Assembly (NCBI RefSeq): GCF_001428545.1
Contig: NZ_LMHZ01000014.1
Coordinates: 58,600-122,599 of the forward strand
DNA from: Noviherbaspirillum sp. Root189
GTDB lineage: Bacteria > Pseudomonadota > Gammaproteobacteria > Burkholderiales > Burkholderiaceae_D
Length of the DNA: 64,000 bases
Reading direction: 5' to 3'
The notes under the pieces were generated by a model that was not told the origin of the DNA, searched no databases, and worked only from the letters and a program-made list of their open reading frames with translations. Position 1 is the first letter of the stretch. Each line of letters starts with the position of its first letter. The translations under genes and the position numbers were made by a program. Shown in pieces: positions 10,918 through 63,530 of this stretch.

Positions 10918-10973
10918 CCCCAACATGTTCAATATCAGCGCGACGGCCTGTCGCGACGTAACGGAGTAACAAC

Positions 10974-11237: not shown

Positions 11238-11264
11238 TACGGCATTATCCGCAGCATCCGAGTA

Positions 11265-11294: not shown

Positions 11295-11331
11295 CTTCCT
11301 ATTCTCAACGAAAGCTCAAAGAAAGCAGCGT

Positions 11332-11832: not shown

Positions 11833-11931
11833 GAGTATCAATAGCACCATAGCATCCAAGCACCGGTCAGGCCTGTGTCGGCGCAAGCCGCCGCACAGGC
11901 CGTGTCCTGCGTATAAAACAGGGAGTGAATC

Positions 11932-12378
11932 ATGAAATCCGCGCGACTATTCCTGTTGTCCGCTGCGCTGATGTGCGCAACCGCCGTCGCCCACGCGATC
12001 GAATACAAGTCCATCGGCCCGGCCCCCGCCGTGCTGTATGACGCACCGTCGCTGAAGGGACGCAAGGTCTTCATCGCACCGCGCGGCATGCCGGTCGAAG
12101 TGGTCCTGACCTATGGCGAATGGGTGAAGATACGCGATGCGGCAGGAGACCTGAACTGGGTTGAATCCAAGATGCTCGTCGCCCGGCGCAATGTCGTGGT
12201 CCGTGCGCCTGGAGCACGCGTACGCGAAGCCGCTGCCGATAATGCCGCAGTCAGCTTCAGCGCCGACAAGGGGGTATTGCTTGAACTGGTCGAAGTTGCG
12301 CCGGCCGGGTGGCTGAAGGTCCGGCACCGCGATGGGCCGAGCGGTTTTGTGAAGGCTGGCGAAGTATGGGGGGAGTGA
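11932..12378 (+). CDS. SH3-domain periplasmic protein
   Basis: A 148-residue exported protein with a clear signal peptide (MKSARLFLLSAALMCATAVA, cleaved near AHA). The mature part holds two bacterial SH3-like repeats, with conserved segments PVEVVLTYGEWVKIRD, LNWVESKM and VAPAGWLKVRHRDG. Such domains often bind peptidoglycan or proteins in the envelope; no ligand can be named here. It lies between secB and gpsA on the same strand. Confidence 0.8.
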   Translation: MKSARLFLLSAALMCATAVAHAIEYKSIGPAPAVLYDAPSLKGRKVFIAPRGMPVEVVLTYGEWVKIRDAAGDLNWVESKMLVARRNVVVRAPGARVREAAADNAAVSFSADKGVLLELVEVAPAGWLKVRHRDGPSGFVKAGEVWGE

Positions 12379-12475
12379 CGTCTGCTTGCGGCGCATTGTC
12401 AATCGCGTCGTCAATGGCATTGCCAGCGTTTATCGCTCCTATTTCCGTCATCGCAGCAAACACAACAAGTACAAC

Positions 12476-13486
12476 ATGAACATCAGCATATTCGGCGCCG
12501 GCGCCTGGGGTACGGCGCTCGCCATCGCGCTTGCCGATCATCATGACGTCGTGCTCTGGGGGCGAGACCAGCAAGCGATGCAGGATGCGGCCGCCAAACG
12601 TGAGAATACGCTTTACCTGCCGGGCTTTCCTTTGCCGGACACCTTGCGCATCGCAGATGATTTCGAGCAGGCAGTCGCCCATGTCACTGGCAGTGCCGGG
12701 AGTGCCGAGAGCCTGCTGATCGTCGCTTCTGCGGTGGCGGGCTTGCGGCCATTGGCGCAACGCCTGCAGGCCTATCCTATTCCCAATATTGTCTGGCTGT
12801 GCAAGGGCTTTGAGGAAAGCTCGCGCTTGCTGCCGCATCAGGTCGTACATGAAGTACTTGGTCATGGCATTCCGCATGGCGCGTTATCCGGCCCATCCTT
12901 TGCGCAGGAAGTAGCGCACGGGATGCCATGCGCGCTGACCATCGCGTCTCACACACCTGCCTTGTGCGACACGGTGGTCAATGCTGTGCATGGTCGTTCA
13001 ATTCGGGTCTATTCGACGGACGATCTTGTCGGGGTGGAAGTCGGTGGCGCGGTCAAGAACATCCTGGCCATCGCGACAGGCGTGGTCGACGGCCTCGGCC
13101 TCGGATTGAATGCGCGCGCCGCGCTGATCACGCGAGGCCTGGCGGAGATCACCCGCCTCGGCATGGCGCTGGGCGGACGTGCCGAAACTTTCATGGGACT
13201 TGCCGGTGTTGGCGACCTGATCCTGACCTGCACCGGCGACCTGTCGCGTAACCGCAGGGTAGGGCTGGGGCTCGCCGAAGGCAAGGATCTCGACACCATC
13301 GTGACCGAACTCGGCCATGTGGCGGAAGGGGTGCGCTGCGCGCAGGCAGTGCGCGCGCTGGCTGCCGATCAGGGCGTGGACATGCCAATCAGCAATGCCG
13401 TAGCCGCAGTCCTGTTCGATGGCGATTCACCGCGTGACATGGTGCACCGCCTGTTATCGCGCGATCCGCGCGGCGAAGCGCTTTGA
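12476..13486 (+). CDS. gpsA: Glycerol-3-phosphate dehydrogenase [NAD(P)+]
   Basis: Makes sn-glycerol 3-phosphate from dihydroxyacetone phosphate for phospholipid synthesis. I choose the ATG at 12476 (MNISIFGAGAWGTALA), giving 336 residues, because the Rossmann GAGAWG motif must sit near the N-terminus; the open frame 30 codons upstream is not family-like. Other motifs: GPSFAQEVA, the catalytic region VGGAVKNILAIATGVVDGL and TFMGLAGVGDLILTCTG. No strong ribosome binding site is visible at this start. Confidence 0.94.
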   Translation: MNISIFGAGAWGTALAIALADHHDVVLWGRDQQAMQDAAAKRENTLYLPGFPLPDTLRIADDFEQAVAHVTGSAGSAESLLIVASAVAGLRPLAQRLQAYPIPNIVWLCKGFEESSRLLPHQVVHEVLGHGIPHGALSGPSFAQEVAHGMPCALTIASHTPALCDTVVNAVHGRSIRVYSTDDLVGVEVGGAVKNILAIATGVVDGLGLGLNARAALITRGLAEITRLGMALGGRAETFMGLAGVGDLILTCTGDLSRNRRVGLGLAEGKDLDTIVTELGHVAEGVRCAQAVRALAADQGVDMPISNAVAAVLFDGDSPRDMVHRLLSRDPRGEAL

Positions 13487-13519
13487 CTTTCAATACCATC
13501 ACCCTAAGCGGCGGCAAGC

Positions 13520-13879
13520 TTACATGCTGCCGCCATTGCCCTTGCTGTCATCGCCTTTGCGCAGCATTGTCATCAGGACCGATGCATTGTCGAGCGCATT
13601 GATCGCATAGGGCGTTTTTCCCTGCAGATAGATCAGCTGCCCTGGCTGGAGCTGCTGATTTTTACCTTGCGCTTGCACTTCCACGATTCCCTCCAGGCAC
13701 TGCAGCGTCAACTCGCCTTCAACCGTGTGCTCAGGAATCGATTTGCCCTTTGGCAGCACCAGACGCATCACTTCGAAATCTTCCGTTCGCACCAGTGCAA
13801 TCGATGCAGAGTCGGTCAGTCTGTCGCCGAGCGGACGAATGTCGATCAGCTCGCCGGATGCGGGATGGTACAGGGACAT
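13520..13879 (-). CDS. Small cupin-domain protein
   Basis: A 119-residue single-domain cupin. The start ATG 13877-13879 is chosen because AGGAGAG lies just upstream on the minus strand; the frame is open further but that part is not cupin-like. The core shows PKGKSIPEHTVEGELTLQCLEG, a reduced cupin motif 1 with one His and Glu, and a motif 2 QLQPGQLIYLQGKTPYAI lacking the usual metal-binding His. It may therefore bind metal weakly or not at all. Convergent with gpsA. No substrate can be assigned. Confidence 0.75.
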   Translation of the reverse strand: MSLYHPASGELIDIRPLGDRLTDSASIALVRTEDFEVMRLVLPKGKSIPEHTVEGELTLQCLEGIVEVQAQGKNQQLQPGQLIYLQGKTPYAINALDNASVLMTMLRKGDDSKGNGGSM

Positions 13880-14500
13880 GGGCGCTCTCCTGGTGCAGAT
13901 TGTTCTTGATGTTGTCGAGACTGCATCAACATCCCGTTTGTTCCTTTGTTGCTGCGCATTCATGTTGCGTGCGGAGGCGAAGGTAAGCTTGTCCGCTATA
14001 GCGAAATAACGCACCGCTTTCAGCAATCATGCGTTCAACGGAGAACTCCCAATGCTTCCGTGGGGATTCAACAATATCAGAGGTTGATCGAATCGACCAA
14101 TAAGCCTCACCCGAGCTTGATATAAGCTTGATATGAGCAAGGAATCCGCCCTGCAAGTTTTTTTGTATCAATCGGCTCTGGCGGCAAACTATTTGAGATA
14201 TCTCAAGTCAGAGAAGTCGCGGCACAGGCACTGTGCCGCCTTCCATTCATTAGTATGTGAGCCGATGATTAATGCTCGCATGCGCCAAGCCGATGAGCAT
14301 TACATAATTACAAAGGCTCTGCCTGACGCAGACCGCCGATGGTGCCATGCAGCCATGTGGCTACCGGTGTAGTCTTGCCGATTCCAACCCGTGGACCGAA
14401 ACGGCGGCAGCTTGCTTTAGAGTAATAAGGCAGTCATCGGGCAATGGCATACTTCGGCCTTATACTAGTGATTCGTTTGTCAATCAACTACATTAACTCT
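13880..14500. other. Intergenic region before the gsp operon, with palindromes
   Basis: I support no gene here; the short open frames lack family features and codon bias. Two structures stand out. One is a perfect 14-bp palindrome TTGAGATATCTCAA (14193-14206). The other is a perfect 9-bp hairpin GCGGCACAG/CTGTGCCGC with a 3-base loop (14219-14239). Both lie upstream of gspG, as does a possible -10 box TATACT at 14461-14466. They could be operator or leader elements of the secretion operon; this is inference. Confidence 0.4.
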
Positions 14501-14965
14501 ATGCAAAAAAAACTCTCCTTTGCTCCCCGGCGCGCCCTGTCGCGTGCCGCAAGCCGTGGCTTTACCCTGATTGAAATCATGGTAGTGGTTGTCATCATGG
14601 GCATTCTCGCCGCACTGGTCGTCCCCAAGCTGATGGGGCGGGCCGACGACGCGCGCATCACGGCAGCAAGGCAGGATATCGCGACGTTGATGTCGGCACT
14701 CAAGCTGTACAAGCTGGACAACCAGCGTTACCCATCGACCGAACAAGGCTTGCAATCCCTGATCACCAAGCCCAGCAGCGGACCGGCTGCCAATGGCTGG
14801 AAATCCGGCGGCTATATCGACAAACTCCCCAAGGACCCATGGGGTAATCCTTATCAGTACCTGTCTCCCGGCGTGAAGGGCGAGGTCGACGTGTTTTCCT
14901 ACGGCGCCGACGGCCAGCCGGGAGGCAGCGGGAATGATGCGGACGTCGGTTCCTGGGACCTTTGA
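14501..14965 (+). CDS. gspG: Type II secretion major pseudopilin GspG
   Basis: Major subunit of the periplasmic pseudopilus that pushes folded exoproteins through the secretin. The ATG at 14501 gives 154 residues with a short basic leader and the prepilin peptidase site G|FTLIEIMVVVVIMGIL, including the conserved Glu at position 5 of the mature protein. The C-terminal part has the family DNQRYPSTEQGLQSL and PKDPWGNPYQY motifs and a Asp/Gly-rich calcium-loop-like end. First gene of a twelve-gene operon; its TGA precedes gspH by about 20 bases. Confidence 0.95.
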   Translation: MQKKLSFAPRRALSRAASRGFTLIEIMVVVVIMGILAALVVPKLMGRADDARITAARQDIATLMSALKLYKLDNQRYPSTEQGLQSLITKPSSGPAANGWKSGGYIDKLPKDPWGNPYQYLSPGVKGEVDVFSYGADGQPGGSGNDADVGSWDL

Positions 14966-49999: not shown

Positions 50000-51820
50000 A
50001 TGCGCTTTAACAATTCGCTCGCATCAACCGATGCGGGCTGGCCGGAACCACAGGTTTCACCGCCCCTCAATATCGCCGGGCTTCTGATTGCCTATCTGGA
50101 GCAGCTAGGGGTAGAACAGGTGTTCGGGGTACCCGGAGGCGCGATCGAACCAATTTACAATGCACTTGCACAAAGCAGCCGGCGCGGTGGCCCGCGTCCC
50201 GTGGTGGCGCGTCATGAAGCGGGCGCGGCGTTCATGGCGGACGGCTATACCCGCGAGACCGGCGCACTTGGCGTCGTCTGCGCTACTTCCGGTCCGGGTG
50301 CCACCAATCTGATCACGGGCGTGGCATGTGCTTACGACAACGGCATCCCCATGCTGGTGATTACAGGGCAGCCTGCCTTGCCGGGCTTCGGGCGTCGCGC
50401 CTTACAAGAGTCGTCCTGCACCGGCATCAACACCGTGGGCATGTTCCGACACTGCACACAATACAATTCCCTTGTCTCCCATCCCCAACAGCTGGAAGCA
50501 AAACTCATCGCCGCCCTGATGCGTGCGACACGTACGCCGCGTGGACCTGTCCACCTGAGCATTCCGCTTGATATTCTCAACAGTCCGGCGACAGTCGCTG
50601 CACCGTCGTATGACTTGCGCACCCTGCTCAAGCCGTCATCGATGCTGGATCAACAGGCGGTAGACAGCTTGTCGCTCATGCTGCGGGATGCCCGCAATCC
50701 GGTGCTGCTGATTGGCGGCTGGTGCGGCGAAGCGATCGCCTCCATTTTGCGTGTCGCCGAGCTGAGACAGGTGCCTTTTGTGACCACGCCAGACGGCAAG
50801 GGTCTGGTTGATCCGCGCCATCCGTTGTACCGGGGCGTGTTCGGTTTTGCCGGCCATGCGTCGGCAGAAGCGGCGCTACGCGACAGATCGGTGGACCTGA
50901 TTCTCGCCGTCGGCACCAGCATGAATGAATGGACCAGCAGCGGCTGGAGCGATTCCTTGCTCAATACCCGCCTCGTGCATGTGGACGAGTCCGATGACCA
51001 TCTTGCCCGGACGCCAATGGCAAAGCTGCACGTGTCCGGCCGCATCCTGACCGTGTTTGAAAAATTGTTCGCGCAGCTTGATACGGTTGCCACGACGACT
51101 AGTCCAGATGCTGATGTCGCCACGGTTACGGCCACAACCACAGTCACAGCGTGTCATGAGGCGCTACTGTTCACGCTGCCGGCCGGGCCGGCGCAGCCCC
51201 CGGATGCAAAGGTCAAGCCATCGCAGCTGATGCATGACCTGGGCCGCCTGTTTCCCGCAACGACGCGGTATCTCGCCGATGCCGGCAATAGCGTCGCCTG
51301 GGCGGTGCATCACCTGGCGCCGCAATTCGCGCATCCCGATGAGCGCAGCACCAGCAGCCATGGCGGCTGGCTGCGTACCACCATGGATTTCGCCCCGATG
51401 GGTTGGGCTATCGGCGGCGCTGTCGGGACCGCACTCGGTAATCCGGACGGGCCGGTGGTATGCATCACCGGCGATGGCAGTTTGATGATGAACGGCCAGG
51501 AGTTGTCGGTTGCCGTCGCCGAAGGATTGACCGTGATTTTTGTCGTGCTCAACGATGCCGCGCTCGGGATGGTCAAGCATGGGCAACGGCTCGCGGGCGC
51601 GGAGCAGATTGCGTTCGCGCTCCCGCCGACCGACTTTGCCATGCTGGCGCGTGCGCTCGGTGCCGAAGCGCATACCATCCGTACCGCGGCCGACCTGAAT
51701 GCGCTGGACATCGATGCGATCTGCGCGCGCAAGGGGCCGACGCTGCTCGACGTCTTTATCGATCCCGAAGAAGTGCCGCCCATTAGCGTCCGCATGCGCG
51801 TGCTTGGCACGCTGTTGTGA
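50000..51820 (+). CDS. ThDP-dependent enzyme, acetolactate synthase large-subunit family
   Basis: A 606-residue protein with the three domains of the family. The Pyr domain has VFGVPGGAIEPIYNAL and the activating Glu E73 (RHEAGAAFMADGY). The central domain has PVLLIGGWCGEA (about 234-245). The PP domain has the ThDP/Mg motif GDGS starting at 491 and ending at N518 (LNDAALGMVKHGQ). Unlike anabolic IlvB no regulatory small subunit is adjacent; instead two citrate-synthase-fold genes follow. The family decarboxylates 2-oxo acids and transfers the aldehyde to an acceptor. The linker at about 361-400 is unusually Thr/Ala-rich. Exact reaction unknown. Confidence 0.8.
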   Translation: MRFNNSLASTDAGWPEPQVSPPLNIAGLLIAYLEQLGVEQVFGVPGGAIEPIYNALAQSSRRGGPRPVVARHEAGAAFMADGYTRETGALGVVCATSGPGATNLITGVACAYDNGIPMLVITGQPALPGFGRRALQESSCTGINTVGMFRHCTQYNSLVSHPQQLEAKLIAALMRATRTPRGPVHLSIPLDILNSPATVAAPSYDLRTLLKPSSMLDQQAVDSLSLMLRDARNPVLLIGGWCGEAIASILRVAELRQVPFVTTPDGKGLVDPRHPLYRGVFGFAGHASAEAALRDRSVDLILAVGTSMNEWTSSGWSDSLLNTRLVHVDESDDHLARTPMAKLHVSGRILTVFEKLFAQLDTVATTTSPDADVATVTATTTVTACHEALLFTLPAGPAQPPDAKVKPSQLMHDLGRLFPATTRYLADAGNSVAWAVHHLAPQFAHPDERSTSSHGGWLRTTMDFAPMGWAIGGAVGTALGNPDGPVVCITGDGSLMMNGQELSVAVAEGLTVIFVVLNDAALGMVKHGQRLAGAEQIAFALPPTDFAMLARALGAEAHTIRTAADLNALDIDAICARKGPTLLDVFIDPEEVPPISVRMRVLGTLL

Positions 51821-51833
51821 CAAATCATCATTC

Positions 51834-52667
51834 ATGAAAGACACCGAATTGACCGAAAGACCGCTTCCGCTCATCCATACCGAAATCTGGAATGAAGACC
51901 CCGAACCCGGGAATCGCTACGCCGCTCGTGCCGCATATTGCCGTGGTTATGATGTATTCGGCGAGATGGTGGGCAATGCGCGCTGGGTGGAAATGCTGTT
52001 CCTGTTGTTTCGCCCGGAATTGCCCGCGCCGGCCGCGCTCGACTTGCTCGAGGCGCTCGCGGTGGCGCTCGCCAATCCCGGACCGCGTGATCCCTCGGTA
52101 CATGCCGCCATGTGCGGCGGCATTGCCGGCTCCAATGCGGCCGCGTCGCTGATCGCCGCCTTATCGGTCGGCGCCGGGCGTTACCACGGTGCGCGCGATG
52201 TGCATGACGCAATGCGGTTATGGACCAGGTGCGGCATGGATCTGGCCGCATGGAAGGCTTGTCTCGCTCCCGTACCCCAGGAAACAGCAGATACCTGGCC
52301 GCAAGCGGAACATCCTCCGGGCTTCGAGCCGCATGCCGCCGTCACGCCGGGCGCAACGCTGACGCTGCTTGAAAGACTCGAGGCAATCGCTCGCATCGCT
52401 GCATTACCGCGCCTTGGCTGGCTGCTCGAGCAGCGGGAAGCGCTGGAGCAGGCGACAGGGATGGGTCTGGATATGTCAGGCGTTGCCGCTGCAGCCTTGG
52501 CCGATCTCGGGTTCGAGCCGTCGGAAGGCGAAATGCTGTACCTGCTGTTACGCCTGCCCGGCGCGGCAGCGCATGCACTGGAACAGCAACGCAAGGACTA
52601 CACGCAGTTCCCGTTTTACGCGGTTGAACTGGAAGACGACCCGGCCGAAAAGAAGGAGTCGGTATGA
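51834..52667 (+). CDS. Citrate-synthase-superfamily protein A (citryl-CoA lyase-like)
   Basis: A 277-residue protein starting 13 bases after the ThDP-enzyme stop. Its shape is that of the citrate synthase fold without the N-terminal region: helices with GYDVFGEMVGNARWVEMLFLLF, then the CoA/oxaloacetate-site-like SVGAGRYHGARDV with H118 at the position of citrate synthase His274, and GLDMSGVAAAAL with D213 at the position of Asp375. The GxGHR segment holding His320 is not visible. Homologues are often named citryl-CoA lyase. It overlaps the next gene (ATGA), so the two proteins are made together and may form a heteromer. Reaction unknown. Confidence 0.7.
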   Translation: MKDTELTERPLPLIHTEIWNEDPEPGNRYAARAAYCRGYDVFGEMVGNARWVEMLFLLFRPELPAPAALDLLEALAVALANPGPRDPSVHAAMCGGIAGSNAAASLIAALSVGAGRYHGARDVHDAMRLWTRCGMDLAAWKACLAPVPQETADTWPQAEHPPGFEPHAAVTPGATLTLLERLEAIARIAALPRLGWLLEQREALEQATGMGLDMSGVAAAALADLGFEPSEGEMLYLLLRLPGAAAHALEQQRKDYTQFPFYAVELEDDPAEKKESV

Positions 52668-53497
52668 GCGGACACAATGCAAAAGCGCCGGTTGCCAGGG
52701 GATCGGCCTTGCTCGATGAGCACGCGGGTATCCTTCGCACCCGGGTGGGTGCCTGCTGGCCCGGCAGCCGGGCGGTATTCCGCGGGGTCGACCTGCACCA
52801 GGAATTCCATGATGCGGACTGGATGGCGCTTTACCTCTACGGCATTACCGGACGTCGTTTTACTCCGCAACAGATCAAGCTGTTGCATGGCATCTGGACC
52901 AACACCAGCTATCCCGACACGCGCCTGTGGAACAACCGGATTGCGGCACTGGCCGGCAATGTGCGTAGTTCGCCGATACTCGGTCTGGCGGCGGCGCTGT
53001 CGGTATCGGAAGCGCGTATTTACGGCGGTGGCCCGGGGCTGCGGGCGATCGACTTTTTCCAGCGCGCGGGCAGGGCGGTCGATGCAGGACAATCGTTGCG
53101 GGCCTTCGTGCAAGAAGAACTGGCGGCGCGCTACATCTATGGCTACGGCCGCCCGATCGAGGCGCATGATGAGCGGCTGCCCTGGTTGTCGGGACTCGCG
53201 AAGTCGCTGGGCCTCGCCGACGGACGGTATTTCCGGATGGCGTTCGAGGTGGAGCGCACGCTGGCTGAACTTGGCAAGCCTTCGCTCAAGATGAACTATG
53301 CGGCGATGACGGCGGCACTTGGCGCCGACATGGGCTTGTCGGTCCGGGAATTCCAGATCTTCCGGCTGCCGTTGTTCCTTGCCGGGATGCCCCCCTGCCT
53401 GGTGGAAGCCGCACACAAGCCCGAAGGCACACTGTTCCCGACGCCTTGCGACGGCATCGCCTATGAAGGCGTCGGCAAGCGCCCTTGGCAGAAGTGA
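52664..53497 (+). CDS. Citrate-synthase-superfamily protein B, catalytic residues lost
   Basis: Also 277 residues and overlapping protein A by four bases. The fold is recognisable: FTPQQIKLLHGIWTNTSYPD, then RIYGGGPGLRAIDFF where citrate synthase has its His274 loop, GYGRPIEAHDERLPWL where it has GxGHRxxxxxDPR, and LKMNYAAMTAALG where it has VDFYSA. By my alignment the three catalytic positions read Gly121, Arg163 and Asn211, so it should not act as a citrate synthase alone. A non-catalytic partner of protein A, or a different reaction, is inferred. The CoA-site-like C-terminus is kept (GMPPCLVEAAHKPEG). Confidence 0.65.
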   Translation: MSGHNAKAPVARGSALLDEHAGILRTRVGACWPGSRAVFRGVDLHQEFHDADWMALYLYGITGRRFTPQQIKLLHGIWTNTSYPDTRLWNNRIAALAGNVRSSPILGLAAALSVSEARIYGGGPGLRAIDFFQRAGRAVDAGQSLRAFVQEELAARYIYGYGRPIEAHDERLPWLSGLAKSLGLADGRYFRMAFEVERTLAELGKPSLKMNYAAMTAALGADMGLSVREFQIFRLPLFLAGMPPCLVEAAHKPEGTLFPTPCDGIAYEGVGKRPWQK

Positions 53498-53616
53498 AAG
53501 TGCATTTGGCAATGCTGTTGCAGCCGGCTGAAAAATTTGCTTGCCGGAATGGACTGTAGAACATCGTTGCACTAGACTGTCACCGCATTGCACAACCATA
53601 TCAGCGAGGGGAACAC

Positions 53617-55728
53617 ATGAGACACATCTATGCGCTTCCCCTGGCAATGGCTACCATGGCTGGCGTGGCCCTGTCGCATGCACCGCTTACCCTGGCCGCC
53701 GATATAGGGGAAGAAGAAGACCTCGCGCTGGTATACGGCGACAAGTCCACCATCAGCATCGCCACCGGCAGCAAGCAGCAGCTGCGCCGGGCGCCGGCGG
53801 TCGCTACCGTGATCACCGCCGAGGATATCGCCGCCATGGGCGCGACCGATCTCGATGAAGTCCTGGAGACGGTGCCCGGCATCCACGTCAGCAATGCACC
53901 CAACACCTATAGCTCGCTCTACCTGATCCGCGGCATCTACAGCAGCCAGAATCCACAGACACTGATGCTGCAGAACGGCATCCCCATGACAACCCTGTTT
54001 CAGGGGAATAAGGGCACCATCTGGGGCGGCTACCCGGTAGAAAACATCGCGCGTATCGAAATCATCCGTGGCCCGGGCTCGGCCTTATATGGTGCCGACG
54101 CGTATTCCGGTGTCATCAACATCATCACCAAGACCGCAGCCGATTTGCAGGGAACCAGCGCCGGCGTGCGCGCCGGCTCCTTCAATACCCGCAGCGCCTG
54201 GGTCCAGCATGGCGGCAAGGCGGGTGATATCGATGTCGCCGCCTATCTGCAGGTAGGCAGCACTGACGGTCAGCGGCGCATTATCGAAGCCGATGCCCAG
54301 TCCGCCCGGGACGGCACTACCGGCACCCGGGCCAGTCTTGCGCCCGGACCGGTCAACGTTGGCTATGATGCACTCGATGCCCACCTGACGCTCGGCTACG
54401 AGAAATGGCATCTCAACGTCGGCTACAAGCTGCGCGACGACCTGGGCACAGGCGCCGGTATCTCCTCCGCGCTGGACCCGATCGGCAAGGAGAAGAGCGA
54501 GCGTTTCAACACAGACCTGTCATGGACCGATAACCATCTGGCCAATGGCTGGGGCGGTGGCGCCACGGTCAGCTATTTCGAATACCGGCAGCGGGTCCCG
54601 GTCAATCTGCAACTGCTGCCGCCGGGGGCGCGTTTCCCGACCGGGTCCTTTCCGGAGGGGATGATCGGCCATCCGGATACCTCGGAGCGACAGCTGCGCT
54701 TGTCCGCGTTCGCCACCTATTCCGGCATCGCCAACCACAGCCTGCGCTTTGGCATCGGTCACGACGATCTCAATCTGTATGACACCCGCACGATCAAGAA
54801 CTACATATTCAATTCTGCGGGCGTTCCGGTTCCCGCCGGGCCGGTGGCCGATTATTCGCTGATCCAGCCTTTCATGCTGCCGCAACGCCGCCAGGTCGAT
54901 TACCTGTACGTGCAGGACGAATGGCAACTGGCACGCGACTGGGCGCTGACGGCCGGCGTACGGCATGACCGCTATTCCGATTCCGGCGGCACTACCAATC
55001 CACGGGTGGCGCTGGTGTGGGATGCGGCGCTCGACCTGACCGCCAAGCTGTTGTACGGACGCGCTTTCCGCGCACCATCGTTCTCCGAACAGTACAGCAT
55101 CAACAACCCGGTTCAGCGCGGCAATCCGGATCTGAACCCCGAAACAATCTCCACTCTGGAGACGGCTTTCTCATGGCAGGCAAGGCGTGACCTGCAGCTC
55201 AATCTGAGCGTGTTTCGCTACACCATGGATGACATCATCCAGGCCACGCCCAATCCGGCTCCGGCCCTTGGCTCGACCTTCAACAATACTGGCGGCCAGC
55301 ATGGGCACGGCATGGAGCTCGAAGCGGTCTGGGATGCCACCCGCACTGTGCGCCTGTCAGGAAATTATGCCTATCAGCGCTCGATCGATGAATCGACAGG
55401 TGCCGATGCCGGCTATGCGCCGCATCATCATCTGTACACACGCGCCGACTGGCGCTTCACCAGCGGCTGGCTGGCCAGCACGCAGCTGAACTGGGTAGCG
55501 GAGCGCAAGCGTCCGGCTGGCGACCCTCGTCCGCCGGTTGCCGATTACAAGACCGTGGACGTTTCCCTGCGCACCAGCCATGCCAGGGGACAGTGGGGAT
55601 TCGCCGCCACGGTACGTAATCTTTTCAATGCAGACATACGAGAGCCCAGTCCCGCTCCCGGCCTGATTCCTCACGATCTGCCCCAGGCACCTCGCGCATT
55701 TTACTTACAGGCGGTGTACAGCATGTGA
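53617..55728 (+). CDS. TonB-dependent outer-membrane receptor
   Basis: A 703-residue gated porin for energy-dependent uptake of a scarce ligand. Signal peptide to about residue 28 (ending LAA), a possible TonB box in the acidic stretch EEEDLALVYG, the plug domain (about 55-175: APAVATVITAEDIAAMG, LDEVLETVPGIHV, IEIIRGPGSALYGADAYSGVINIITK) and a 22-strand barrel ending in an aromatic-rich strand (FYLQAVYSM). FecA-type signalling extension is absent. It follows the citrate-synthase pair by 119 bases on the same strand. Ligand unknown; siderophore, cobalamin-like or other metal complexes are possible. Confidence 0.88.
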   Translation: MRHIYALPLAMATMAGVALSHAPLTLAADIGEEEDLALVYGDKSTISIATGSKQQLRRAPAVATVITAEDIAAMGATDLDEVLETVPGIHVSNAPNTYSSLYLIRGIYSSQNPQTLMLQNGIPMTTLFQGNKGTIWGGYPVENIARIEIIRGPGSALYGADAYSGVINIITKTAADLQGTSAGVRAGSFNTRSAWVQHGGKAGDIDVAAYLQVGSTDGQRRIIEADAQSARDGTTGTRASLAPGPVNVGYDALDAHLTLGYEKWHLNVGYKLRDDLGTGAGISSALDPIGKEKSERFNTDLSWTDNHLANGWGGGATVSYFEYRQRVPVNLQLLPPGARFPTGSFPEGMIGHPDTSERQLRLSAFATYSGIANHSLRFGIGHDDLNLYDTRTIKNYIFNSAGVPVPAGPVADYSLIQPFMLPQRRQVDYLYVQDEWQLARDWALTAGVRHDRYSDSGGTTNPRVALVWDAALDLTAKLLYGRAFRAPSFSEQYSINNPVQRGNPDLNPETISTLETAFSWQARRDLQLNLSVFRYTMDDIIQATPNPAPALGSTFNNTGGQHGHGMELEAVWDATRTVRLSGNYAYQRSIDESTGADAGYAPHHHLYTRADWRFTSGWLASTQLNWVAERKRPAGDPRPPVADYKTVDVSLRTSHARGQWGFAATVRNLFNADIREPSPAPGLIPHDLPQAPRAFYLQAVYSM

Positions 55729-55838
55729 CGGTGCGACCGTCCGCGACACCACATTTCCAAGCTTCAGGGCGGTAGATCGCCGTCCTGCGAACCGACCGCA
55801 CGCCGCGCTGGTGATACCAGGCGAGCCGGACCGATACG

Positions 55839-57098
55839 ATGGATAACAGACCCAGTACTTATTACCAACCGCCGTTTGTCACCAAATTCAACCGCCGCAC
55901 GCGCTTGTGGAATTTGTTTGGCCAAAAGAAGATTGATTTGTCCGAGGCATCGTTGATCGAGGCCGCCCGTGCTGAAACCGGGCTGGAGCGCTTCGGCGAT
56001 GAAAGTTTTCTGCCGCCGCTGCGCGCCTTGCTGCACGCGCTTGAAACGGAAGCCGAACTCAATCCGTTCGGACGCTTCAATGCACGCATGCGCACCATCC
56101 GTTCGCTGAAAAACCGCCTGTGGGCGAATGCCTGTTTCGAAGCGCATCCGGAAATCCTCGAATGCCGGATCGAAGCTCCGATTGTGATTGTCGGTCCGCA
56201 TCGTTCCGGTACCACGCGTCTGCAGCGAATGATGGCGACCGATACGCGCCTGCAGCACCTGAAGACCTGGGAAGGATTCAATCCCGCGCCGCGTCCCGGC
56301 TTGCCCGACATGGGCAAGCAGCTGCGGCGCGATGAGGTAAGGCAGTTTCTGGATCTCGGCCGGCAAATCTATACCGGTGGCTATATCGCGCACCCGATGG
56401 ATGCCGACTGGCCGGAAGAAGACATGCTGCTGCTCAACCATTCCTTCTGCGGCTTTTCGGTGCTTGGCATGTTTAACATACCGAGTTATTACCGCTGGTT
56501 CCTCGAGTATGACAAGACCGAGGTATACCGTTATACCGCCAAGCTGATGAAGCTGATTTCGTGGTCGCGCGGCGACGCTGACGACAAGCGCTGGGTGCTC
56601 AAGAACCCGCAGCACATGCTGGATCTTGATGTGCTGATGAAGGTATTCCCTGATGCCCGGTTGGTATTCACTCATCGCGACCCGATCAAGACCGTGGGCT
56701 CCGTCATGTCGCTGATGTGGCATTTTGCGGTCCAGCATACCGACCTGCCATGTCGTGCATCGACGCGCGACGTGTGGATGGATTTCTGCGAGCAAGCTGC
56801 GCGGCGTGCCATGGAACAGCGCGAGCATCTTGCCGCCGCCCAGCAAATGGACGTCCACTATGAGGAAATGAACCATGACTGGCGCGCTGCCATGCGGCGC
56901 ATCTATGCGTTCGGCGGCATGGAATTCACCGCGCAGGTTGAACAGGCCATGCACGACTGGCTCGACAACAGCGAAAAAGAAAACCTGCATGGCGGCCACC
57001 GCTATGCACTCGAAGATTTCGGCACCAGCGCAGCAGAAGTCGACCGTCGCATGATGTTCGTGCGCGAACGCTACGCCGTCGCTTACGAGGGAAAATGA
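55839..57098 (+). CDS. PAPS-dependent sulfotransferase family protein
   Basis: A 419-residue cytosolic protein of the Sulfotransfer_3 type. The 5'-phosphosulfate loop GPHRSGTT is at 119-126, after the strand APIVIVG. The 3'-phosphate site is the Arg/Ser pair in RLVFTHRDPIKTVGSVMSL (about 274-292). Such enzymes move sulfate from PAPS to hydroxyl or amine groups of small molecules, lipids or carbohydrates. Its TGA overlaps the ATG of an APS kinase gene (ATGA), which would supply PAPS. The acceptor is unknown. Confidence 0.82.
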   Translation: MDNRPSTYYQPPFVTKFNRRTRLWNLFGQKKIDLSEASLIEAARAETGLERFGDESFLPPLRALLHALETEAELNPFGRFNARMRTIRSLKNRLWANACFEAHPEILECRIEAPIVIVGPHRSGTTRLQRMMATDTRLQHLKTWEGFNPAPRPGLPDMGKQLRRDEVRQFLDLGRQIYTGGYIAHPMDADWPEEDMLLLNHSFCGFSVLGMFNIPSYYRWFLEYDKTEVYRYTAKLMKLISWSRGDADDKRWVLKNPQHMLDLDVLMKVFPDARLVFTHRDPIKTVGSVMSLMWHFAVQHTDLPCRASTRDVWMDFCEQAARRAMEQREHLAAAQQMDVHYEEMNHDWRAAMRRIYAFGGMEFTAQVEQAMHDWLDNSEKENLHGGHRYALEDFGTSAAEVDRRMMFVRERYAVAYEGK

Positions 57099-57748
57099 AC
57101 GCGCGCGACAAATTTGCCGGGAGCACCACAATCAGTTCTCGCGTCAGTAATGACGTGACCTGGCAGGCTAGCAAGGTCTCGGTGGACGATCGCGTACGCC
57201 TGTTGCAACAACAGCCTGCGACTGTATGGTTGACCGGCTTGTCCGGTGCGGGAAAATCCACGATTGCGTATGAACTGGAACGGCGCCTGATCGCTCGTGG
57301 TCAGGCTGCCTTCGTGATGGATGGCGACAACGTGCGGCACGGCCTTAATCGCGACCTTGGCTTTTCTCCTTCGGACCGCAGTGAGAACATCCGGCGAATT
57401 GCGGAAGTGGCAAAGCTCTTTAATGAAGCCGGGATGCTGGTGATTACTTCCTTCATTTCACCCTACTGCTCCGACCGGGCCATGGCGCGCGAGATCATTG
57501 GCGCTGACCGTTTTATCGAAGTCCATCTGGCGACGGAACTGCGTGTCTGCGAAGAGCGCGACCCCAAGGGTTTGTATCGCAAGGTGAGGGCAGGTGAGAT
57601 CCGGGAGTTTACTGGTATCAGCGCCCCTTATGAAACACCCGGCCAGCCGGATCTCCGGATCGATACCGGCTGCATGACGCTCGACGCCAGCGTGGAAGCC
57701 ATTCTGGGTCTGCTGGAATCGCGGCTTGGAGCGGAGCCCCATGAATAA
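57095..57748 (+). CDS. cysC: Adenylylsulfate (APS) kinase
   Basis: Phosphorylates APS to PAPS. The 217-residue protein has Walker A GLSGAGKST (48-56), the APS-binding DGDNVRHGLNRDLGFS, the lid with SFISPYCSDRAMAR, and EFTGISAPYETP near the C-terminus, all intact. It is a stand-alone kinase not fused to ATP sulfurylase. It overlaps the sulfotransferase gene, so PAPS production is genetically tied to the sulfotransferase rather than to cysteine synthesis; no other cys gene is near. Confidence 0.92.
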   Translation: MNARDKFAGSTTISSRVSNDVTWQASKVSVDDRVRLLQQQPATVWLTGLSGAGKSTIAYELERRLIARGQAAFVMDGDNVRHGLNRDLGFSPSDRSENIRRIAEVAKLFNEAGMLVITSFISPYCSDRAMAREIIGADRFIEVHLATELRVCEERDPKGLYRKVRAGEIREFTGISAPYETPGQPDLRIDTGCMTLDASVEAILGLLESRLGAEPHE

Positions 57749-57861
57749 TTTACGCCACATCCGGTCATGGAACGGTACAACACGCCGGGGTTTGCCGTTT
57801 GCCAGAATGGGCTTTGCGCTATCCGTGGTTCGCGTCCGTCGTGCAGTGTGTCCTTGACAAT

Positions 57862-58905
57862 ATGGCCGCAGTCCTCTTTCCGCTGATCAGTCGTTTTACG
57901 TCTGGCACACGCATCCTGTGCGTGGCGCTCGGCCTGTTTTCGACTATTGCGTCGGCACCGTCCTGGGCGGCGGGTGCGGCCGGGCATATCATGCTCGCCG
58001 AGGCCGGCGATCCGCCGCGCCGGGCCGATGCGCCGGCCCCTGGTTCGGTAGCTGTCGTGTATCCCGACCTCGGCGAGCCGTACCGCAGCATTTTTGCCAC
58101 CATTATCGAAGGCATTCAGGATGGGGCGAAGTCCGCCGTCCACCTTTATGCTGTCGCGCCCAATACCGATACCGCCGAGCTGAATGCCGGCCTCCGGCGG
58201 CATGGTGCCAAAGTGGTCATTGCACTTGGTCGCCAGGGCTTGAAGGCGGTGTCCGCCATCGAGCGCGAGATTCCCCTGGTGGTCGGCGGTGTGCTGGCCA
58301 TGCCGGAAGGCGATCACCGCAGCGTGACCGGCATCAGTCTGACGCCGGACCCTGCCTTACTGTTCAGTCGCCTGCGCGGACTGGCGCCTTCGGTCAAGCG
58401 TGTGACGCTTGTCTACAATCCGCACCACAACGAATGGCTGGTACGCCTTGCGCGCGAAGCCGCCAGGGCACAAGGGCTGGAACTGATTGCGCTTGAAGCA
58501 CGCGACCTGGCCAGCGCCGCGCGCCTGTACGAAAACGCGTTTGCCGGCAGCGACAGCAAGCGCGACGCGATCTGGTTGCCACAGGACGCGACCACGGTCG
58601 ACGAAAGCACCATCCTTCCTCTTGTGCTCAAGGAGGCCTGGAACAGGAACGTACCTGTCTTTTCCAGCAGTTTCCTGCACGTGAAAAAAGGCGCACTGTT
58701 TGCGCTGTACCCGAACAATGTGGAACTTGGTCGCACGCTTGCCGCCTCGGCACTCGGCGTGCTTGCCGGTGATTCGCGCCGACGCGGCATGTTTCCGCTT
58801 CGTGATGTACAGATGGCAGTCAATGTCCGGACCGCCAGCCATATCGGTTTAAGTTTCGGGTACCAGCAGCAGCGCAGTTTTGACGCCATTTTTCCGGAGC
58901 AATGA
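57862..58905 (+). CDS. ABC-type substrate-binding protein (PF04392-like)
   Basis: A 347-residue exported protein. I use the ATG at 57862; an upstream TTG at 57799 would add 21 residues. Signal-like segment to about residue 37 (ending SWA). The mature part has the two-lobed periplasmic-binding fold: VAVVYPDLGEPYRSIFATIIEGIQDG, LRRHGAKVVIALGRQGLKAV, VKRVTLVYNPHHNEWLVRLAREAA, and a C-terminal VELGRTLAASALGVL. No permease or ATPase gene accompanies it. It lies next to a sensor kinase, so it may present a ligand to that receptor. Confidence 0.78.
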   Translation: MAAVLFPLISRFTSGTRILCVALGLFSTIASAPSWAAGAAGHIMLAEAGDPPRRADAPAPGSVAVVYPDLGEPYRSIFATIIEGIQDGAKSAVHLYAVAPNTDTAELNAGLRRHGAKVVIALGRQGLKAVSAIEREIPLVVGGVLAMPEGDHRSVTGISLTPDPALLFSRLRGLAPSVKRVTLVYNPHHNEWLVRLAREAARAQGLELIALEARDLASAARLYENAFAGSDSKRDAIWLPQDATTVDESTILPLVLKEAWNRNVPVFSSSFLHVKKGALFALYPNNVELGRTLAASALGVLAGDSRRRGMFPLRDVQMAVNVRTASHIGLSFGYQQQRSFDAIFPEQ

Positions 58906-58997
58906 TGAACACCAATACTTCGCCTGTTCAACTGCAACGACACTTACACGCCGTCCCGCACACGCGTCCTTGCCTGACGCGCTCCATTGTTTCCTGA
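58905..58997 (+). CDS. Possible 30-codon ORF between the binding protein and the sensor kinase
   Basis: An ATG overlapping the last base of the binding-protein stop codon (ATGATG) opens a 30-residue frame that ends 6 bases before the sensor kinase ATG. The kinase start has no visible Shine-Dalgarno, so translation through this frame could deliver ribosomes to it. The peptide itself has no recognisable feature and may not matter. Confidence 0.3.
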   Translation: MNTNTSPVQLQRHLHAVPHTRPCLTRSIVS

Positions 58998-59003
58998 GCC
59001 GCC

Positions 59004-62000
59004 ATGCTTCGTCACTATTTCAGCCGTACCGGTTTCCGTCGGCAACTGACCATTACGGTGAGCGCTGCCATCCTCGGGCTCGCGCTGTTTTCTTCCCTGA
59101 TGAATTCCTGGGAAGCCAGCCGCCGCATGGAAGGCTATCTGGTCGAGCAAGGGCAGCGCATCGCCGAAAACCTGGCCCGCCAGAGCATCCTCGCGCTCCT
59201 GTACCGTTCTCCGGACAATGTACGCGACGGCATCGCCGCCACGCTGGCATTTCCCGACGTGCTGCAGGTCGAGATCACCGACGCGGCCGGCAAACCCCTG
59301 CTTTCACAATCCAAACCAGGCGCCAATGTCTCGGGTGCCGGAGCGCAGCGAACGGAATGGAGCGCCGGGAACCCGCATGCCGTGCTCGACAATGAAACCG
59401 GCAAGCACTGGTACTTCACCGCACCGGTCTATGGTGGCCAGAGCGACACATCGCCGTTCGAAATGCATGACAACAAAGCGCAATTGCTTGGTTATGTTCA
59501 TGTCGTCATCGGCAAGGGAACATTGAACCGGCTGGTCACGTCGCTCCTGATCGGCAATCTCGCCATTACGTTGTCGTTCGCCGCGGTCCTGCTGGGCATC
59601 ATGCGCCTGCTTGCGCGACACACGATCAAGCCGCTCAATGCCTTGTCGCGGCTGATGGGCCGTGCCGAAGCGGGCGAATCCGGCATGCGCGCCGTGCCGG
59701 GCGGACCGCGCGACATCGTCGAGATGGCGCACGCCTTCAACAAGATGATGGACGTGCTGGAAGAGCGCGAAGCAGAGCTCAAGCAGTCGCGCGACGATGC
59801 GGTACGTACTGCGCTGACCAAGACGCAGTTCGCGGCCACCGTCAGCCATGAAGTGCGCACACCGCTCAACGGCGTGGTCGGCATGCTCGACATGCTCAAG
59901 GAAATGCATCTGACCAAGCGGCAGCAGGAGTGCGTCGATATTGCCTGGAATTCTTCCCACACACTGATCGAGCTGATCAATGACATCCTTGATTTTTCAA
60001 AGATGGAAGCTGGCAAGCTCGAACTCGAAGAAATCGAGTTCGACTTGCGCAAGCTGGTGGAAGAAGTCATTGAGCTGCTGGCCAGGCAGGCGCAGCAGAA
60101 AGGGCTGGAAATCGGCTACCTGATGGCGCCGGAGGTGCCGGAGCGCCTACGCGGCGACTCGCTGCGCCTGCGCCAGGTGTTGCTCAATCTGATCAGCAAC
60201 GCGGTCAAGTTCACCGAGCACGGTGAAGTGGCCATAACCATTTCGGCGGCACCGGATGCGGACGATAAGCTGATGTTGCGCTTTGATGTATCGGACACCG
60301 GCATCGGCATGAGCAAGGACGCGGTCAAGCATATCTTTGAATCATTTGCGCAAGCCGATCGTTCGACCACCCGCAAGTATGGTGGCACCGGGCTCGGCCT
60401 TGCCATTTGCAAGCAGCTCGTGGTCCTTATGCAGGGCGAGATCGGTGTCTCCAGCGAACTCGGCAAAGGCAGCACTTTCTGGTTCCAGGCACGGTGTTCT
60501 GCCGGGACCGCCCAGGTCGCCATTGCTCCTGGTCCTGTTCATGCCCCTGCCTCAGCGCCTGCGCCGATCGATGACAGCAATTTGCGCGGCATCAGGGTGC
60601 TGGTGATCGACGAAAGCAGGATTGTGCGCAGCTTCCTGTGCCAGAGCCTGGAACAGGCGGGCATGCGTTGCCATGCCGTTACCAATGGGCCGGAAGCCCT
60701 TTCGGAACTCGCGCGTGCGGAACAATCGCGCGCTCCGTATGCGCTGGTCATCCTCGACGTCGCCACCACCGACGATCGCGGAACTGACCTGATACGCCGG
60801 CTACGTGTCGAAATCGGTACCGTGGTGCCACGCTTGCTGGCACTCGACCGATACGCATCGCCAATGGTCAACAGCGCGCTGGGCGCTGATCTCTACCTCG
60901 GCAAGCCGTTGCGGCGGGAACGCCTGATGGAAGCAGTGCGCCGCCTGCTGCCCGGCACGCCCGTGCCAGGCAGCGCGTTTGCCGCCAGCGCGCCGGTTGC
61001 CACCGCAACAGTCGCTGCCAAGGATTACCGCGTCCTGGTCGCCGAAGATAATCGCACCAACCAGATGGTGGCCGGCGGCATGCTCGCCATGAACGGTTGC
61101 GAATGCCAGATTGCCGCCAACGGCCGTGAAGCTGTCGAGGCGGCACGCCATGGCCGCTTCGACCTGATCCTGATGGACTGCAGCATGCCGGAAATGGATG
61201 GTTACGAGGCAACCGCCCATATCCGTAACTTCGAGGAGACGCTGGGCTTGCGCACGCCGATCATCGCGATGACTGCCAATACCCAGCCTGGCGACGCGGA
61301 GAAATGCCTGGCTGCCGGCATGGATGACTATCTTGCCAAACCGATTACCTTGGTGGAGTTGCGGCAAAAGCTCGAGCGCTGGCTCGCACGTCTTGAACCA
61401 AGCGGACGTGCGGTATTACCGGAAGTCGAAACGCATGAAGCCGATGGCAGCCCGCTGGACCATGAAACGTTCGACAAGCTGCGCGAAATTCTCGGGCCGG
61501 CGCTGGAACAAACCGTGACTCCCTTCCTCGAAGACACGCCCGGTTATCTGAACGGGCTGGAGCAGGCGGTGCAGGAATTGAATGCCGACGCCGCGCGCGC
61601 CATGGCGCATTCGATCAAGGGCAGCAGTGGCAACCTCGGCGCACTGAATCTTGCGCAGATCGCCAAGGAGGCGGAAGAACTGGCCATCGACCATCGTATC
61701 GGTGAAATCCGTCCCCTGCTCGGACGTCTGCGCCAGGCCTTCGATGAGGTCTCCGCAGTGCTGGGCGCTGAGGTCTTGATTGACGATCGCCTGAGTGTGC
61801 GTGAAGACGACGAAGCGCCGCAAGTGCTGGTGGTCGATGATGATCGCAGCACCCGTAGTTCGTTGCGGCATACCTTGCAGCGCGACGGCTTCCGCGTGGA
61901 AGAAGCCGCCGATGGCGCACAGGCGCTGCAGATGCTCAAGCGCATGCAGCCGGATGTGATCCTGATGGATGCGGTGATGCCGGTCATGGATGGCTTTGCC

Positions 62001-63530
62001 GCTTGTGCACGGGTGCAGGAGTTGCCGAATGGACGTTCTATCCCGGTGCTGATGATTACGGCGCTGGAAGATAATCAGTCGGTGGAGCGCGCGTTCGCGG
62101 CCGGCGCCAGTGACTACATTCCCAAGCCGATTCACTTTGCGGTACTGTCGCAGCGGGTACGGCGCATCATTGAAGCCAACCAGGCCGAGAAGCGCATCCG
62201 GCATCTGGCCTATAACGACATCCTGACCGGATTGCCGAACCGTGCCCTTTTCATGGACCAGCTTGGCCGCCGTATCGAGCAGGCGCGCGTCGCAGGGGAG
62301 TCCGTTGCGGTGCTTTTCCTTGATCTGGATCGCTTCAAGAACGTCAACGATTCGCTCGGCCACGATGCCGGTGACCGCTTGCTGGTCGCTGTTGCACAGC
62401 GTCTGCGGCGCAGTGTCCGCAATGCCGACTGTGTCGCCCGTCTTGGTGGTGATGAGTTCACCGTGGTGCTGGCCGAGATCGTCGGCCCGAATGCCGCCGT
62501 GACCGCCGCGCAGAATATCTGCCGCGCCTTGTCGACGCCATTCGAGATTGATGGCAACGATATTTTTGTCACCGCCAGCGTCGGCATTTCCATGTACCCC
62601 AATGATGCAACCGATGTCGGGACCTTGCTCAAGCATGCGGACACGGCGATGTATCGCGCGAAGAAAACAGGCAGCGGCTTCCAGTTTTTTGAAGCCTCGA
62701 TGGAACATTCGATTTCCGAGCATGTACGTCTGGAAAACGATCTGCGCCGTGCGCTGGAACGCAAAGAGCTCGAAGTTTATTACCAGCCGCAGGCACGTGT
62801 TGACACAGGCAAGATCATCGGCGCGGAAGCGCTGGTGCGCTGGCGCCATCCGACGCGCGGCATGGTGTCGCCCGCCGAATTCATTCCGCTCGCCGAAGAG
62901 ACCGGGCTGATCAGTTCCCTCGGTGAGATGGTATTGCGGACCGCATGTAGGCAGTTGCAGTCATGGATCGCTGCGGGATTCTCGCCGATCCGCATCGCTG
63001 TCAATCTGTCGGTGAAGCAGTTGCTGAAAAAGGATTTTGCTTCATCGGTCGAACAGGCCCTGGCGGATACGGGACTGTCGCCGAGTCTGCTGGAGCTGGA
63101 AATCACAGAGAGCACCTTGATGGAAAATGCGCAGGATACGCTGGAGGCTTTGCATCGCTTGCGCAGCCTTGGGGTGCGACTGTCGATTGACGATTTTGGT
63201 ACGGGATATTCCTCCCTGTCTTACCTGAAACGCTTCCCGGTTGACATTATCAAGATCGACCGGTCGTTTGTACGGGATGTGCCGCATGATGCGGATGATG
63301 CGTCGATTGTTACGGGGATTATTGCGCTGGCGCATAGCTTGCGGCTTGAGGTGGTGGCGGAGGGGGTCGAGACTGCGTCGCAGCTGGGGTTTTTGAAGGA
63401 TCGGGATTGTGATTTGATGCAGGGGTATTTTTTGAGCAAGCCGGTGCCGGCGGAACAGTTTGCTCGCGAGTTGCTGTCGGTGGCGCAGCCGGAGTGGAAG
63501 GGGATGACCGGGAGTTTGCCGGGGGTGTGA
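59004..63530 (+). CDS. Hybrid sensor histidine kinase with three receiver domains, Hpt, GGDEF and EAL
   Basis: A 1508-residue membrane signalling protein. Two membrane helices (about 15-33 and 182-203) bracket a periplasmic sensor of about 150 residues. Then follow HAMP (about 205-258), HisKA with H282 (SHEVRTPLNG), HATPase (N-box LLNLISNAVKF, DTGIGM, GGTGLGL), REC1 (D585; the switch Thr is not evident), REC2 (D725, MDCSMPEMDGYEA), Hpt (H869, AHSIKGSSGNLG), REC3 (D989), GGDEF (1148-1152) with an intact RxxD I-site at 1139-1142, and EAL (1275-1277) with DDFGTGYSSL. Both c-di-GMP synthesis and breakdown look possible. It is the last gene of the cluster, next to a binding protein. Confidence 0.9.
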   Translation: MLRHYFSRTGFRRQLTITVSAAILGLALFSSLMNSWEASRRMEGYLVEQGQRIAENLARQSILALLYRSPDNVRDGIAATLAFPDVLQVEITDAAGKPLLSQSKPGANVSGAGAQRTEWSAGNPHAVLDNETGKHWYFTAPVYGGQSDTSPFEMHDNKAQLLGYVHVVIGKGTLNRLVTSLLIGNLAITLSFAAVLLGIMRLLARHTIKPLNALSRLMGRAEAGESGMRAVPGGPRDIVEMAHAFNKMMDVLEEREAELKQSRDDAVRTALTKTQFAATVSHEVRTPLNGVVGMLDMLKEMHLTKRQQECVDIAWNSSHTLIELINDILDFSKMEAGKLELEEIEFDLRKLVEEVIELLARQAQQKGLEIGYLMAPEVPERLRGDSLRLRQVLLNLISNAVKFTEHGEVAITISAAPDADDKLMLRFDVSDTGIGMSKDAVKHIFESFAQADRSTTRKYGGTGLGLAICKQLVVLMQGEIGVSSELGKGSTFWFQARCSAGTAQVAIAPGPVHAPASAPAPIDDSNLRGIRVLVIDESRIVRSFLCQSLEQAGMRCHAVTNGPEALSELARAEQSRAPYALVILDVATTDDRGTDLIRRLRVEIGTVVPRLLALDRYASPMVNSALGADLYLGKPLRRERLMEAVRRLLPGTPVPGSAFAASAPVATATVAAKDYRVLVAEDNRTNQMVAGGMLAMNGCECQIAANGREAVEAARHGRFDLILMDCSMPEMDGYEATAHIRNFEETLGLRTPIIAMTANTQPGDAEKCLAAGMDDYLAKPITLVELRQKLERWLARLEPSGRAVLPEVETHEADGSPLDHETFDKLREILGPALEQTVTPFLEDTPGYLNGLEQAVQELNADAARAMAHSIKGSSGNLGALNLAQIAKEAEELAIDHRIGEIRPLLGRLRQAFDEVSAVLGAEVLIDDRLSVREDDEAPQVLVVDDDRSTRSSLRHTLQRDGFRVEEAADGAQALQMLKRMQPDVILMDAVMPVMDGFAACARVQELPNGRSIPVLMITALEDNQSVERAFAAGASDYIPKPIHFAVLSQRVRRIIEANQAEKRIRHLAYNDILTGLPNRALFMDQLGRRIEQARVAGESVAVLFLDLDRFKNVNDSLGHDAGDRLLVAVAQRLRRSVRNADCVARLGGDEFTVVLAEIVGPNAAVTAAQNICRALSTPFEIDGNDIFVTASVGISMYPNDATDVGTLLKHADTAMYRAKKTGSGFQFFEASMEHSISEHVRLENDLRRALERKELEVYYQPQARVDTGKIIGAEALVRWRHPTRGMVSPAEFIPLAEETGLISSLGEMVLRTACRQLQSWIAAGFSPIRIAVNLSVKQLLKKDFASSVEQALADTGLSPSLLELEITESTLMENAQDTLEALHRLRSLGVRLSIDDFGTGYSSLSYLKRFPVDIIKIDRSFVRDVPHDADDASIVTGIIALAHSLRLEVVAEGVETASQLGFLKDRDCDLMQGYFLSKPVPAEQFARELLSVAQPEWKGMTGSLPGV

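Follow-up and report, generated by a model that had tools for sequence, protein, structure and literature searches.

A thiamine diphosphate enzyme and two citryl-CoA-lyase-fold proteins lacking key catalytic residues as the likely synthesis end of a putative signal cassette in Noviherbaspirillum sp. Root189

The stretch of DNA analysed here, further called the window, comprises 64,000 nucleotides of Noviherbaspirillum sp. Root189 (assembly GCF_001428545.1, contig NZ_LMHZ01000014.1, positions 58,600 to 122,599 of the forward strand), and its positions 50000-53497 hold three genes: one for a thiamine diphosphate (ThDP)-dependent enzyme of the acetolactate synthase superfamily and two, termed A and B, for proteins with the fold of citryl-coenzyme A (CoA) lyase. 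Since these genes recur in many species, where their neighbours include genes for an outer-membrane receptor and a sensor kinase, the three together likely make a small molecule that would be retaken by the cell and read as a signal, and 50000-53497 is likely the synthesis end of a longer cassette. The whole cassette is proposed to serve the synthesis, recapture and sensing of an acyloin-derived and, in this strain, probably sulfated signal, a reading to which a probability of roughly 0.45 is given. The broader claim, that this is a widespread new class of signals in which a ThDP-made acyloin is finished by a citrate-synthase-fold heteromer with a new active site, recaptured through TonB, read out by kinase and cyclic di-GMP (c-di-GMP) and heard also by listener species, is held to be somewhat unlikely.

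The constancy with which the genes occur together was followed in three samples. A profile of B was scanned against one genome per species and gave 115 confirmed relatives; the loci numbered with L in the main sample are the best 80 of these 115, many of them truncated by contig ends, and 51 have about 10 kb on each side of B. Genes around the 80 loci were matched by direct tblastn (E ≤ 1e-10); an all-against-all clustering of the unlabelled open reading frames (ORFs) returned mostly shadow reading frames, and codon scoring together with direct tblastn was used instead. A and B are adjacent on one strand in all 79 loci where both are in view, and in 76 of the 79 the start codon of B is positioned for a 4-base overlap, the start nearest that place being chosen. 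The 51 loci with both flanks contain the ThDP enzyme in 51 cases, A in 51, a TonB-dependent receptor (TBDR) in 47, a periplasmic binding protein in 36 and an SDR dehydrogenase in 20, while the corresponding counts for all 80 loci are 76, 79, 70, 51 and 27, with a sulfotransferase in 10 and an adenylyl-sulfate (APS) kinase in nine. At stricter limits the receptor is found in 64/80 loci (550 bits) and the binding protein in 47/80 (200 bits). The SDR dehydrogenase is the only extra recurrent gene that was recognised, and further partners, exporters included, may have been missed.

The second sample, for which 200 genomes of the order, the own one among them, were drawn separately (G numbers), overlaps the 80 loci in part. 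Here B was found in 11 genomes and A, adjacent to it, in the same 11 (both at E < 1e-100). The ThDP enzyme (E ≤ 1e-100) was present in 13, namely those 11, G062 and G083, and the binding protein (E ≤ 1e-20) in 16, among them those 11 and G062; the binding protein accompanies the ThDP enzyme in 12 of its 13 genomes, own included. Weaker matches were excluded: B had ten, each in a different genome, and A had five, likewise in separate genomes, the own genome contributing a second A match among these. For five pairings the hypergeometric values range from 6e-11 to 5e-17, calculated with the own genome left out and phylogeny ignored. Chance neighbourhood was considered and rejected on the gene counts around the 80 loci, the A-B adjacency and the order-survey co-occurrence. 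The preliminary description of this DNA had proposed a dedicated set, laid out as a ThDP gene, a 13-base gap (51821-51833) and two 277-residue genes sharing ATGA (52664-52667), and had named rare co-occurrence as the outcome that would speak against it. The layout stands, all 11 order genomes with A and B and all 51 full loci carry the ThDP enzyme, and the dedicated set is thus borne out; what had been missed is its extension to the receptor, the binding protein and the sensor.

At the level of the class, 369 genomes were drawn, own included, and 42 were B-positive at E ≤ 1e-20, that is 41 of the 368 other genomes, with scores in two groups (244-437 and 147-187 bits) and one partial match of 91 bits. 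Stretches were fetched for 20 of the 42, several of which stop at contig ends, and they contain A in 17, the ThDP enzyme in 15, TBDR in 16 and the binding protein in 14. Genera with B relatives include Massilia, Rugamonas, Roseateles, Gallionella and Sulfuricella; no plasmid-borne relative of B was found at E 1e-5. Since B is present in 41/368 genomes, about a tenth of the sampled species may make a metabolite with its own receptor and a kinase/c-di-GMP output.

The arrangement of the three genes varies among loci. In Geobacter/Desulfuromonadaceae (L031, L035, L072, L074) the ThDP gene is 36-39% identical and lies on the opposite strand. L068 (Pseudomonadales, 7341-14582) has a tandem double ThDP-A-B set, the ThDP copies being 48% and 55% identical to that of the window, and in L077 (Rhodocyclales, 4704-11814) a ThDP and SDR pair is followed by extra copies that run A B A B B, and downstream of these lie genes for transglutaminase and lytic transglycosylase. 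The SDR gene, absent from the run of the window, is placed between the ThDP gene and A, or at another point of the cluster, in L009, L015, L021, L054, L066, L077, L078, L080 and others. L185 (G334:C1:3257639-3258292) holds B alone, with no match to A, the ThDP enzyme, the receptor or the binding protein in 18.6 kb.

The Pfam Citrate_synt matches of A (18.7 bits) and B (22.7 bits) are below the gathering score of 27, and the NCBIfam citryl-CoA lyase models, with cut-offs of 193-261, give A 61 bits at best and B 32 bits. The citryl-CoA-lyase fold assignment nevertheless holds, because the AlphaFold2 models of both proteins (mean predicted local distance difference test score 88 for A and 80 for B) have citryl-CoA lyase 6hxp as their best match in the PDB (Foldseek E 1.2e-9 and 1.0e-8, respectively); the citrate-synthase-superfamily fold proposed beforehand is confirmed by these models. 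A also matches 6hxp directly in sequence (E 7.3e-11), and B gives no sequence match to it at E ≤ 1.

Catalytic residues were compared in alignments of the window A with 58 of its 77 relatives and of the window B with 59 of its 80, and representatives were aligned with the two citrate synthases of the own genome and its citryl-CoA-lyase-like protein L101, all of which keep these residues. The column of the first catalytic His is occupied in A by Pro (54/59) or Ala (5/59) and in B by Pro (60/60), and the catalytic Asp is found in 0/59 A and 0/60 B. Both residues are likewise missing from 17/17 A and 20/20 B of the class-level loci, and the same two changes are seen in the direct alignment of A with 6hxp. 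The second His, in the HGGA loop, is replaced in B by Tyr (56/60) or Phe (4/60), with no His in the neighbouring column; in A a His stands at 118 in 2/59 sequences, that of the window included, and at 117 in 7/59, the loop alignment being uncertain by one column. Among the class-level A proteins, 7/17 have His in the second-His column of L101, i.e., six of the seven members of a divergent group (L174-L180) and the nearer A of L189. An arginine that aligns with a citrate synthase site arginine is kept in 59/59 A and lost in B; at this position five of the seven divergent A proteins have Ser and one nearer A has Lys. B has an invariant arginine of its own in a GYGRP stretch (60/60), and many positions, many of them charged or polar, are invariant in A and in B. 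Stops flagged within the A match of G035 and the B match of G016 are normal gene ends. With the first His and the Asp gone, and with no CoA ligase domain matched by Pfam in any of the eight genes between 50000 and 63530, the acyl-CoA condensation or cleavage that the preliminary description had associated with the citrate synthase fold is weakened.

The divergent A proteins belong to a second A/B subfamily (class-level L172-L180, B at 147-187 bits), which is still found near receptor genes and in most cases with the binding protein and the sensor; A was found in L174-L180, where it precedes B.

From these alignments we infer that A and B would form a heteromer with another active site, or else a scaffold. 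In the latter case, compatible with the other readings but rather unlikely, they would be a non-enzymatic scaffold or regulatory heteromer for the ThDP enzyme, like the small subunits of acetolactate synthase. This would suit the loss of the first His and the Asp from every aligned sequence, as well as G062, where the ThDP enzyme occurs without A and B, while the many invariant charged and polar positions suggest an active site of another kind.

The ThDP enzyme has TPP_enzyme N, M and C domains, all above the Pfam cut-off, and it thus shares its three domains with IlvB. An ordinary IlvB was rejected: the protein scores 300.9 bits with the IlvB model TIGR00118 (cut-off 538.35), whereas another ThDP gene of this genome, on contig C23, reaches 783 bits and is adjoined by the one IlvN match of the genome, which does not lie beside the cassette gene. 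The objection raised in advance, that the enzyme might be an ordinary IlvB with its small subunit elsewhere, therefore does not apply. Other ThDP matches in the own genome are 27-34% identical to the cassette enzyme. In an alignment of the window enzyme with the 68 relatives that exceed 500 bits among the 80 loci, the catalytic Glu73 is present in 67/69 rows (the other two are gapped), and Asp492 of the GDG motif and Asn518 in 69/69.

The best PDB matches of the enzyme are BbmA (8x3x) and CsmA (8x3z). According to a 2025 paper, CsmA and a second enzyme spelled BpmA, which we take to be the BbmA of the PDB, are relatives of CybE, an alpha-hydroxy-beta-keto acid synthase that joins two 2-oxo acids (PMC12395478). 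The cassette enzyme shares the ThDP family of the CybE/CsmA/ScyA type, and its nearest solved relatives, as that paper describes them, are of this type; by these likenesses it is predicted to be an alpha-hydroxy-beta-keto acid (acyloin) synthase. Its scores are far from those of ScyA proper (218 bits against a cut-off of 1020; 240.7 against 1000 for a ScyA-related model). The CybE pathway, as described there, also includes an ammonia-lyase and a CoA-ligase (PMC12395478), whereas neither domain was found among the eight genes of 50000-63530.

Downstream of B the cassette continues with the receptor, sulfotransferase, APS kinase, binding-protein and sensor genes. The order ThDP-A-B-receptor-binding protein-sensor is repeated in many other loci, and two relatives in Noviherbaspirillum (L007, L008) carry all eight genes in an identical order. 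The receptor looks specific to the cassette, judging by its similarities: over almost their whole length, the receptors of cassette genomes in the order survey are 43-67% identical to it, whereas the best other receptor of the own genome reaches 35% across a segment of about 190 residues. The first 262 residues of the sensor recur in 49/80 loci (E ≤ 1e-15), joined to outputs that differ greatly in length, and in 62/94 once ten stretches from the order survey, partly of the same genomes, and four of the receiver type described below are added. Kinase domains are present in 33 of the 44 sensors that were scanned, and both GGDEF and EAL in 24.

A receptor beside synthesis genes, as in most loci, is also what a metallophore would call for. 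The ThDP enzyme, A and B would then build a carboxylate ligand, the receptor would retake the metal complex, and the binding protein and the sensor would regulate the process. The receptor does resemble heme, siderophore and B12 receptor models, but it passes no cut-off among the 25 models listed. Moreover, the eight genes contain no inner-membrane importer, no NRPS-independent siderophore (NIS) synthetase and no non-ribosomal peptide synthetase (NRPS) domain, the rest of the genome not having been searched for these, and what usually accompanies the cassette is a membrane sensor whose output runs through a kinase or c-di-GMP. A metallophore is thus considered quite unlikely.

For the signal reading, the following course of events is proposed. 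The ThDP enzyme would couple two 2-oxo acids to give an alpha-hydroxy-beta-keto acid or an acyloin, which the A/B heteromer would remodel through a non-canonical active site, not by the acyl-CoA mechanism of citrate synthase. In this strain the sulfotransferase, with 3'-phosphoadenosine 5'-phosphosulfate (PAPS) from the APS kinase, would sulfate the A/B product. The product would leave the cell and be brought into the periplasm by the TonB-dependent receptor, where the PF04392 protein would bind it and the sensor would read it, altering phosphorelay and c-di-GMP output. Genomes with only the receptor, the binding protein and the sensor would be listeners.

Could the same genes work in the opposite direction? 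ThDP and citrate-lyase-fold enzymes are able to run in the cleaving direction, and in a catabolic route the receptor and the binding protein would detect an environmental compound, which would be cleaved within the cell by the ThDP enzyme together with A and B. One lyase His is probably retained in the divergent A group, which would fit such a role; two of the three lyase catalytic residues are gone throughout. There is no inner-membrane permease domain among the Pfam matches of the eight genes, the sulfotransferase and APS kinase expend energy on adding sulfate, and the nearest solved ThDP relatives are linked to biosynthesis in the CybE paper. Catabolism is therefore judged improbable. Synthesis is favoured over it because sulfation spends PAPS, and periplasmic sensing is favoured over nutrient or metal uptake because the sensor recurs and the run includes no inner-membrane permease; neither argument is decisive. 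The two options left side by side at the outset, a carboxylate metallophore and a catabolic route, are accordingly both retained as rivals.

Genomes with only part of the cassette bear on the signal reading from both sides. In G037, G071 and G120 (3/16 genomes positive for the binding protein) the TBDR, the binding protein and the sensor lie side by side as "receivers", with no match to A or B (E ≤ 1e-3) or to the ThDP enzyme (E ≤ 1e-100) genome-wide. In G062 a single run holds genes for the receptor, the sulfotransferase, the ThDP enzyme, the binding protein and the kinase, and their retention together supports a self-made signal.

Several points weigh against it. A and B are absent from that same run of G062, and receiver-only genomes would be equally expected if the ligand were an environmental nutrient, as the catabolic route supposes. 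No exporter is present within the 50000-63530 run. Some of the TBDR and kinase matches counted around the loci, most notably those of the kinase query, belong to generic members of these families, and kinship is ignored in the hypergeometric values. Cassettes without a nearby TBDR or binding-protein match exist as well (L064, L069, L189, L191). Since the sulfotransferase is found in only 10/80 loci and the APS kinase in 9/80, sulfation is not a core step. Finally, the divergent A group (L174-L180) probably keeps the second catalytic His, as its alignment with L101 suggests, so that lyase-like chemistry is possible there.

Other incomplete sets were noted in the order survey. G195 (86% complete) has the binding protein and no receptor match at threshold, and in G020, G067, G088 and G150 the sole receptor is more distant (38-41% identity). 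The ThDP enzyme of G083 is more distant (51%), with no other cassette gene in 18 kb except generic kinase similarity. In G159, which has no receptor match, the binding protein is encoded on a different contig from the short one that carries ThDP, A and B. An orphan receptor that shares 63% identity with that of the window (L154, G120:C5:140116-142140) has no other cassette gene in 19.5 kb; G120 also holds one of the receiver-only loci.

The eight genes of the run are collected in Table 1; all lie on one strand. The ATG of A sits within a longer mechanical ORF that begins at 51699, and the true start of the binding protein may be a later ATG at 57862, ahead of a stretch that by eye resembles a signal peptide. 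Promoter- and terminator-like sites are no more frequent than in shuffled sequences.

Table 1. Genes of the window between positions 50000 and 63530.
Product	Position	Strand	Details and basis
ThDP-dependent enzyme, acetolactate synthase superfamily, not IlvB	50000..51820	+	606 aa, ATG start; Pfam domains
A: citryl-CoA-lyase-fold protein, first catalytic His and Asp absent	51834..52667	+	277 aa; Pfam, AlphaFold2/Foldseek, alignments
B: second citryl-CoA-lyase-fold protein, His/His/Asp all absent	52664..53497	+	277 aa, ATG start; same methods as A
TonB-dependent outer-membrane receptor (TBDR), recurs with cassette	53617..55728	+	Pfam, neighbourhood comparison
Sulfotransferase (Sulfotransfer_3)	55839..57098	+	Pfam
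Adenylyl-sulfate kinase (APS kinase; PAPS supply)	57095..57748	+	Pfam; ATGA overlap with sulfotransferase, 4 bases
Periplasmic substrate-binding protein (PF04392)	57799..58905	+	Pfam
Membrane sensor, 1508 residues: sCache_4, HAMP, HisKA, HATPase_c, three receiver domains, Hpt, GGDEF, EAL	59004..63530	+	

A full-text search of open-licence papers, with most subscription papers outside its scope, listed no pathway with this gene set, in agreement with the earlier remark that no described pathway with exactly this set was known. If the signal reading is true, signalling would gain a chemistry that is new, the citrate synthase fold would be seen in a new role in which its key catalytic residues are missing, and TonB-dependent receptors would be seen to serve in listening; the existence of genomes with and without the synthesis half allows direct tests of producers and listeners.

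When set against citryl-CoA lyase, the C-domain of ATP-citrate lyase and citrate synthase, A and B have the same fold, but they are without the first His and the Asp, the second His is absent in B and scarce in A, both stay below the NCBIfam cut-offs, and they come as a pair of proteins and not as one. On the side of sensing, the autoinducer system LuxP/LuxQ pairs a periplasmic binding protein with a sensor kinase, and CqsA/CqsS is one whose signal is an alpha-hydroxyketone. The cassette likewise has co-occurring synthesis and sensing genes and a binding protein beside a membrane kinase, whereas it differs from both systems by its ThDP chemistry, its citrate-lyase-fold pair, its TonB-dependent receptor and the GGDEF/EAL domains in its sensor.

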